Assembly (NCBI RefSeq): GCF_002355375.1 | Contig: NZ_AP017312.1 | Location: 1,443,001 to 1,507,000, forward strand | Origin: Aneurinibacillus soli | GTDB taxonomy: Bacteria > Bacillota > Bacilli > Aneurinibacillales > Aneurinibacillaceae | Length of the DNA stretch: 64,000 nt | Direction of reading: 5' to 3' | Shown: positions 3,203 to 33,268 of the stretch, piece by piece | How positions within the stretch are numbered: position 1 is the stretch's first letter | Layout of the letters: the number at the start of each line of letters is the position of its first letter | Made by a program: the position numbers and the translations under genes | Notes under the pieces: generated by a model | The model's input: only the letters and a program-made list of their open reading frames with translations | Databases searched by the model: none | Told to the model about the DNA's origin: nothing

Positions 3203-3387
3203 GGCAGTTCACCTCCTATAAAGGGTACAGTAAGCTTCGTACCTTATACTTTATATGTATGCGAATAGGATTGCTTGCTACTGTGCAAAAATTGCCTATC
3301 TTTTAAAAAAGATAGAAATAAGAGGAAAAAGAGTGGACAAATCCCCCCGATAAATGATACATTTTTCTTGAAAAGTAAACGGATATT

Positions 3388-3556
3388 AAAGTTCAGGTGC
3401 CGGGGTCCTACCTCGGCTTAAAAGGGAAGTCCGGTGTAAATCCGGCGCGGTCCCGCCACTGTAACTGCCGAGTTCTTTCGCATAATGTCACTGTTCCGTA
3501 CCGGGATGGGAAGACGCGAGGGCGCGATGAAGCAGGAGTCAGGAGACCTGCCTGTC
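3388..3556 (+). promoter_or_regulatory. Cobalamin (adenosylcobalamin-type) riboswitch
   Basis: The stretch shows the conserved B12-box features: GGTGCCGGGGTCCTACCTCGG near 3396-3416 (the P2/P3 entry), AAAGGGAAGTCCGG at 3420-3433, the near-invariant GCCACTGTAA at 3455-3464, and a closing CAGGAGACCTGCC at about 3540-3552. It lies in the leader upstream of the cobalt ECF transporter operon, the classical location. It is expected to reduce expression when B12 is plentiful. The terminator at 3643 is about 90 bases downstream of the aptamer and could be its expression platform. I found no convincing promoter immediately upstream. Confidence 0.93.
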
Positions 3557-3642
3557 TTTTTGTATCGCCATTTGGTTTCTTCGGGGGTGAGAAGCACAGG
3601 CATGGGCCGGTTTTTGTACAACCGGACATAGGAACAGTAAAC

Positions 3643-15118: not shown

Positions 15119-15154
15119 GGCAGCGATCATTCGAAAGAGGGAATGATCGCTGCC
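15119..15154 (+). terminator. Perfect hairpin after the ferritin gene
   Basis: GGCAGCGATCATT and AATGATCGCTGCC form a 13-bp perfect stem around a 10-nt loop. A T-run is missing, so it may stabilise the 3' end rather than terminate efficiently. Confidence 0.6.
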
Positions 15155-15255
15155 GTCCGTTAACGCTTGCATTTTGTCTGGTGGCATGTTAGGATGTAGC
15201 TACAAACACGATATGAATTGCCTGCGATGTACGATCATTTTTTATGTTTCGAACC

Positions 15256-15284
15256 TTACTATTTATTAGGGAGTCCGATATAAT
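15256..15284 (+). promoter_or_regulatory. Promoter of an orphan small RNA unit
   Basis: A perfect TATAAT at 15279-15284 has TTACTA 17 nt upstream (weak -35). No credible open reading frame follows before the terminator at 15405. Confidence 0.5.
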
Positions 15285-15290
15285 GTGGTG

Positions 15291-15437
15291 GACGCTATGC
15301 TTGCACAGATGAGACAGCGGAAGCGATGCTGAGGACACCCACCTGCGAGAGCGGGTTATGAAACATGAGGATGAAACGGCATAGGCGGGGTTACATAAGA
15401 AACAGACGCTTTTCGCTTTAGCGAAAGGCGTTTTTTT
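15291..15437 (+). ncRNA. Putative small non-coding RNA of unknown class
   Basis: About 147 nt bounded by a TATAAT promoter and a strong intrinsic terminator (ACGCTTTTCGC TTTA GCGAAAGGCGT then T7, 15405-15437). Inside are ACCTGC-GAGA-GCGGGT, a 6-bp stem with a GNRA tetraloop (15343-15358), and two TGAGGA-like boxes. The flanking genes are ferritin upstream and a convergent TlpA gene, so it is not a leader. I could not match it to 6S, SRP, tmRNA, RNase P, T-box or the common riboswitches. End points are estimates. Confidence 0.5.
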
Positions 15438-15453
15438 GTGTGCGGCAGGCCGC

Positions 15454-15490
15454 AAAAAAGGCGCAACACGATAACTTGTGTTTGCGCTTT
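15454..15490 (-). terminator. Terminator of the TlpA-like gene
   Basis: GCGCAACAC pairs with GTGTTTGCGC (one bulge), and on the minus strand the stem is followed by T6. Confidence 0.7.
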
Positions 15491-15518
15491 CTTGAAAGTC
15501 GAGCTTCTATGTGTCGGA

Positions 15519-16043
15519 TCATGGGTTTATCAGTCCGCGAATAACCGTATTTAATTGTTCCGGGGGGAGAACGCCTGTCTCGATGCGGATAATCTTTCCG
15601 TTCCCGTCAATAAATATGTTCGTCGGATAGCCCTGCACTTGATACAGCTCGGTTACGTCCCCTTTCTCATCGAATACAACCGGGTAAGGCACCCCAAAAA
15701 AATCGATAAATGTACGTGCGTTTTCTTTTTTGTCATTGAGTGTTACGTTAACCGCTACAATTTCAAACTTCCCGTGGTATGCTTTGTATAGCTTGATTAG
15801 CTGTGGGGTTTCGATGCGGCACGGACCACACCAGGACGTCCAGAATGAGAGTAGGACTGGTTTTTTAATGGAAGAAAGGCGCAGAGTATGACCGGACGCA
15901 TCAGTCAGGGCGAAATCCGGTGCATAATACCCGACTGCGGCGCGCACTTCTTTTTTTGTAGAAAGAACCGTTTCTTTCTGGTTGTACAAGGTATAGCCAA
16001 GAAGAGCAAGAATGACGGTGAGGGCTACCATCGCTTTTTTCAT
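15519..16043 (-). CDS. TlpA/ResA-like membrane-anchored thiol-disulfide oxidoreductase
   Basis: 174 residues: an N-terminal membrane anchor (MVALTVILALLGYTLY), then a thioredoxin domain of the AhpC-TSA/Redoxin type with active site WTSWCGPCRIETP and the cis-Pro loop QGYPTNIFID. The domain faces outside the membrane, where it would reduce or exchange thiols, for example in cytochrome c maturation. ATG 16043 has GGGTG upstream; GTG 16052 is an in-frame alternative. It is not next to cytochrome maturation genes, so the partner is unknown. Confidence 0.9.
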   Translation of the reverse strand: MKKAMVALTVILALLGYTLYNQKETVLSTKKEVRAAVGYYAPDFALTDASGHTLRLSSIKKPVLLSFWTSWCGPCRIETPQLIKLYKAYHGKFEIVAVNVTLNDKKENARTFIDFFGVPYPVVFDEKGDVTELYQVQGYPTNIFIDGNGKIIRIETGVLPPEQLNTVIRGLINP

Positions 16044-16097
16044 ACATTTCACCCACTTTAGTAAAGGATATATATAAATTCGCTGTCGTAAATATGA

Positions 16098-33149: not shown

Positions 33150-33241
33150 TAACGACCACTAGGGGAGCATAGTTGCTGAGAGGGGCATTCGTCCCGACCC
33201 TTATAACCTGATTCGGATAATGCCGACGTAGGGAAGTGGAG
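33150..33241 (+). promoter_or_regulatory. TPP riboswitch (THI element)
   Basis: Conserved features in order: ACTAGGGGAGC at 33157-33167, GCTGAGAGGG at 33175-33184, ACCCTTATAACCTGATTCGG at 33197-33216, ATAATGCCGACGTAGGGA at 33217-33234. This is the classic thi-box. It lies 90 bp upstream of the thiamine-precursor transporter operon and should lower expression when thiamine pyrophosphate is abundant. Confidence 0.96.
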
Positions 33242-33268
33242 ACGGCCTGTTTTTATGATTGCAGACAC

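Follow-up and report, generated by a model that had tools for sequence, protein, structure and literature searches.

The window, a 64,000-nt stretch of the Aneurinibacillus soli genome analysed here, contains on its forward strand an apparently orphan transcription unit, which a first-pass annotation placed at 15256-15437 and proposed as a new small RNA matching none of the common families. The question raised by this locus is whether it represents a new class of RNA or a member of a known one. Comparison with Rfam covariance models, the check on which that annotation had itself staked its claim of novelty, gives a clear answer: the 6S RNA model (RF00013) matches at 15216-15395 (+) along its full length (model positions 1-187 of 187), with 68.6 bits against a curated gathering score of 46.4 and an E-value of 2e-11 for the whole window. 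Two further families were considered and rejected, TD-1 RNA (RF03155), which attains 34.5 bits over 15397-15496 and does not reach its gathering score of 64.5, and Afu_513, which likewise falls under its own. The best explanation is that the locus encodes 6S RNA and is one of two such genes, the second copy, in this Aneurinibacillus genome; we place the probability of this reading at roughly 0.97. The orphan RNA is removed as a false lead, and because the gene is a second copy of a well-known RNA it is ordinary and of an already described kind. Though its kind is known, the locus itself may be undescribed in the papers searched, none of which contains both “6S RNA” and “Aneurinibacillus”.

Conservation and covariation in related genomes, which the first-pass annotation had also put forward as a check, agree with this assignment. 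The 6S body is 79-93% identical to the five other copies in the genus (37-71% for the promoter region), and a common structure was obtained by aligning and folding together 18 of our 60 sequences, namely 15 of the 16 copies not linked to aspS from families f1 and f2 (G011_2 was omitted) together with G033_2, G037_1 and G019_1. Across these 18 sequences, 96.4% of the 810 pair cells in the 6S fold are standard and 20 of the 45 pairs show two-sided changes, figures biased in favour of the counted structure by its derivation from the same alignment. None of 500 shuffled controls reached any of the five measures, and sliding pairing partners by 1-3 columns left 36.7-47.7% of cells paired. The Rfam E-value, the sequence identity within the genus and the covariation all indicate more than chance. 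Folding of 15209-15402 as a single sequence is modestly better than shuffles (z = -2.02), which is a weak signal alone and adds little.

The consensus (18 sequences, 45 pairs) is a rod made up of a closing stem, a large central bubble, an apical arm and a 3' hairpin. The closing stem pairs 15221-15233 with 15377-15389 (11 pairs, 98.5% of cells paired across the 18 sequences), and a second stem below the bubble pairs 15245-15251 with 15359-15365 (7 pairs, 96.8%). The 5' strand of the bubble, 15252-15268, is unpaired in the consensus, and the apical arm spans 15269-15340 (helices 3-6). On the 3' side of the bubble stands the GNRA-capped stem that had been recognised at first pass: GAGA at 15347 caps a six-pair hairpin at 15341-15356, which is the conserved 3' hairpin of 6S RNA, with 100% of its cells paired, three of its pairs varying on one side only and none on both. 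Two TGAGGA boxes had been reported as well, and both are present, the first (15330-15335) within the apical arm and the second at 15366; as a motif they do not survive, since these are poorly conserved 6S positions at which the hexamer is kept in 1/7 and 2/7 aligned sequences, respectively, and the repeat looks like chance.

We asked how this gene relates to other 6S genes in the same genome and in its relatives. The genome (4.1 Mb, a single contig) carries two 6S genes above the cut-off, an aspS-linked copy scoring 88.5 bits and the window copy. At least one 6S gene lies above the cut-off in all 41 genomes searched (A. soli and 40 relatives), and among 14 control genomes five gave a match, four of these above the cut-off. 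Two copies are present in six of the seven genomes of the genus, our own included; the seventh (G003, in approximately 300 contigs) shows one. The two types differ in their surroundings. The aspS-linked copy (L048) is flanked by hisS-aspS and tcdA-rarA-cymR. The window copy is followed by TlpA-like, GDPD and methyltransferase genes in all six genus genomes that carry it, and preceded by a ferritin gene in five of the six (G001 gave no ferritin match); the closest relative of the ferritin is in Aneurinibacillus aneurinilyticus ATCC 12856 (NZ_KE952672.1). In a tree of 60 sequences, 6S copies cluster by type and not by genome: 12 of the copies away from aspS, the window copy among them, form one clade (support 98.1/99), four others (G007_3, G011_2, G013_1, G014_1) form a separate clade (97.4/99), and the family's aspS-linked copies, except G009_1, form a third (88.7/79), with the deep nodes poorly supported. 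Since copies group by type, the sequences place the split between the two 6S types before the genus, and the window copy is an older paralogue. Three 6S genes per genome were also observed, in G007 (L030, L039, L040) and in G013 (L042, L043, L044).

A likely sigma-A-type promoter for the window gene, TTGCAT-N17-TAGGAT, lies at 15167-15195 (+). Its agreement with the consensus is weak, at 3 and 4 of 6 bases, and a generic promoter scan listed neither this site nor the TATAAT at 15279; we favour it because the same site, with the same spacing, stands upstream of all six copies in the genus. Expressed as TTGCA[AT]-N17-TAnnAT, the pattern lies 48-50 nt upstream of these six copies and has this single occurrence in the window on both strands. 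Across families f1 and f2, 7 of the 16 copies not linked to aspS (the six of the genus and G007_2) have it 43-50 nt upstream, and a looser promoter-like site is found 38-47 nt upstream of all 13 aspS-linked copies; both patterns were composed after viewing the sequences, so that these counts are descriptive. Between the ferritin gene and this promoter there is also a 14-pair hairpin (15119-15154), with a terminator-like score on the reverse strand only, which may form the end of the ferritin transcript.

These observations bear on whether the window copy could be a decayed paralogue that has lost transcription or polymerase binding, a reading suggested by its Rfam score, which is below that of the aspS-linked copy, and by the single genus genome in which no second copy is seen. 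We regard this as very unlikely, as the body is far better conserved across the genus than the promoter region, compensatory changes maintain its pairing, and the promoter is retained.

The boundaries proposed at first pass fare less well than the general idea of a free-standing structured small RNA, which the sequence supports. The annotated start falls 40 nt inside the 6S span, and the unit probably begins approximately 54 nt earlier. The TATAAT hexamer taken to be its promoter does exist at 15279-15284 (+), in the basal loop of the apical arm; we reject its promoter role because it lies within the 6S RNA and its six aligned bases are not conserved, reading CATAAC, AATTAG, AATTAA, TATTAC, TATTAA and CATTAA in the six other copies of the alignment. 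The hexamer occurs 44 times in the window on both strands. To the proposal of a new RNA class of approximately 147 nt transcribed from this TATAAT we give next to no credence: the segment 15289-15437 folds better than shuffles (z = -2.97), but the RF00013 match is full length, the hexamer is an unconserved part of that model, and conservation and pairing reach upstream of it to about 15221.

At the other end, the terminator described earlier is confirmed as a terminator-like hairpin of 13 pairs (15404-15433) whose T run extends to 15437 (+), against a background of seven such sites in 3 kb compared with 3.0 (sd 2.2) in shuffles, and by eye hairpins with T runs are also seen downstream of the other genus copies. 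A 6S RNA is expected to form a free-standing transcript of approximately 180-200 nt, and the promoter and terminator sequences here predict a free-standing unit. The statement that the unit has no reading frame is correct for the forward strand, where the open reading frame list contains none of at least 40 aa within the unit; the reverse strand does hold an open frame of 88 aa that begins with TTG (15189-15455). The next gene, TlpA-like (15519-16052, reverse strand), is indeed convergent, and for this reason the RNA is not a leader of the downstream gene, as had been argued.

The window copy shares with 6S RNA / SsrS the closing stem, central bubble, 3' hairpin and apical arm, and shows no difference that would exclude it from the family, its distinction being that it is the second, lower-scoring copy in its genome. 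It belongs to the same family and mechanism class as Bacillus subtilis 6S-1 (bsrA). Its position is not that of a bsrA orthologue: it lies between ferritin and TlpA-like genes and not between aspS and tcdA, the latter of which we take to be yrvM; that place is taken by the other copy. Like 6S-2 (bsrB), the window copy is a second 6S gene located away from aspS, and its bubble reads ACCTT, as in the second copies of two other Bacilli (G027_2 and G039_2), which presumably resemble 6S-2. The tree, which included no named bsrB and has poor deep support, does not unite it with these two. In B. subtilis, according to PMC11077062, bsrA is flanked by aspS and yrvM, and each of the two RNAs, 6S-1 and 6S-2, associates with sigma-A polymerase, with different timing. 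Two 6S copies are reported for several Firmicutes in PMC8414754.

Of 6S RNAs in general, PMC8876501 states that they mimic an open promoter and bind the primary-sigma holoenzyme, and that the short pRNAs templated on them aid its release. By analogy, we infer expression, polymerase binding, pRNA synthesis and a physiological role for the window copy. The gene would be transcribed from its own sigma-A-type promoter (15167-15195) and terminated at the hairpin 15404-15437; the rod, its central bubble imitating an open promoter, would then bind the sigma-A RNA polymerase holoenzyme and direct the synthesis of short antisense pRNAs, which in turn would release the polymerase. Binding of sigma-A polymerase and templating of pRNAs is most likely the function of this RNA. 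The 5' strand of the bubble (15252-15268) begins AACCTTAC, with CC at 15254-15255. The hallmarks of pRNAs listed in PMC8414754 include GG at positions 4/5 or 5/6, AA at 9/10 and an adenine next to the start site; under the GG rule, a likely start opposite 15258 or 15259 is predicted to give GG at 4/5 or 5/6, and on our reading the other two hallmarks are lacking in the window copy.

Outside the genus, in related families, the second 6S type is often situated in arrays of tRNA genes. Among the 16 f1 and f2 copies not linked to aspS, six (G007_3, G008_2, G011_1, G012_1, G013_2 and G014_1) lie with their Rfam span no more than 25 nt from a tRNA gene. None of the seven copies with the strict promoter has a tRNA gene within 1 kb in the sequence examined, compared with eight of the nine without it (the exception being G011_2; one of the nine, G013_2, fits the looser promoter pattern). 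Second-type 6S genes no more than 25 nt from tRNA genes in related families were recorded at loci L037, L040, L043, L045, L047 and L096, two of which have tRNAs on both sides. This arrangement suggests that tRNAs and second-type 6S RNAs may share joint transcripts in those genomes; the titles and abstract beginnings covered by our literature search included no paper concerning the placement of 6S genes among clustered or co-transcribed tRNA genes. It is tempting, if rather doubtful, to see in the window copy an old second 6S lineage whose members in related families reside within tRNA arrays and are co-expressed with tRNAs, and which has become free-standing with its own promoter in Aneurinibacillus. 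Were this so, one of the two RNAs by which the cell sequesters polymerase may once have followed tRNA supply and growth rate and later come under separate control. The genus possesses two 6S genes whose ancestries are separate and older, the second of which stands beside tRNA genes in sister families, and the series of tRNA-linked and free copies offers natural material for asking what purpose a second 6S RNA serves.

Elsewhere in the window, the Rfam scan identified two further RNA elements, both on the forward strand: a cobalamin riboswitch (RF00174) at 3378-3569 with 128.3 bits and a TPP riboswitch (RF00059) at 33151-33251 with 79 bits.
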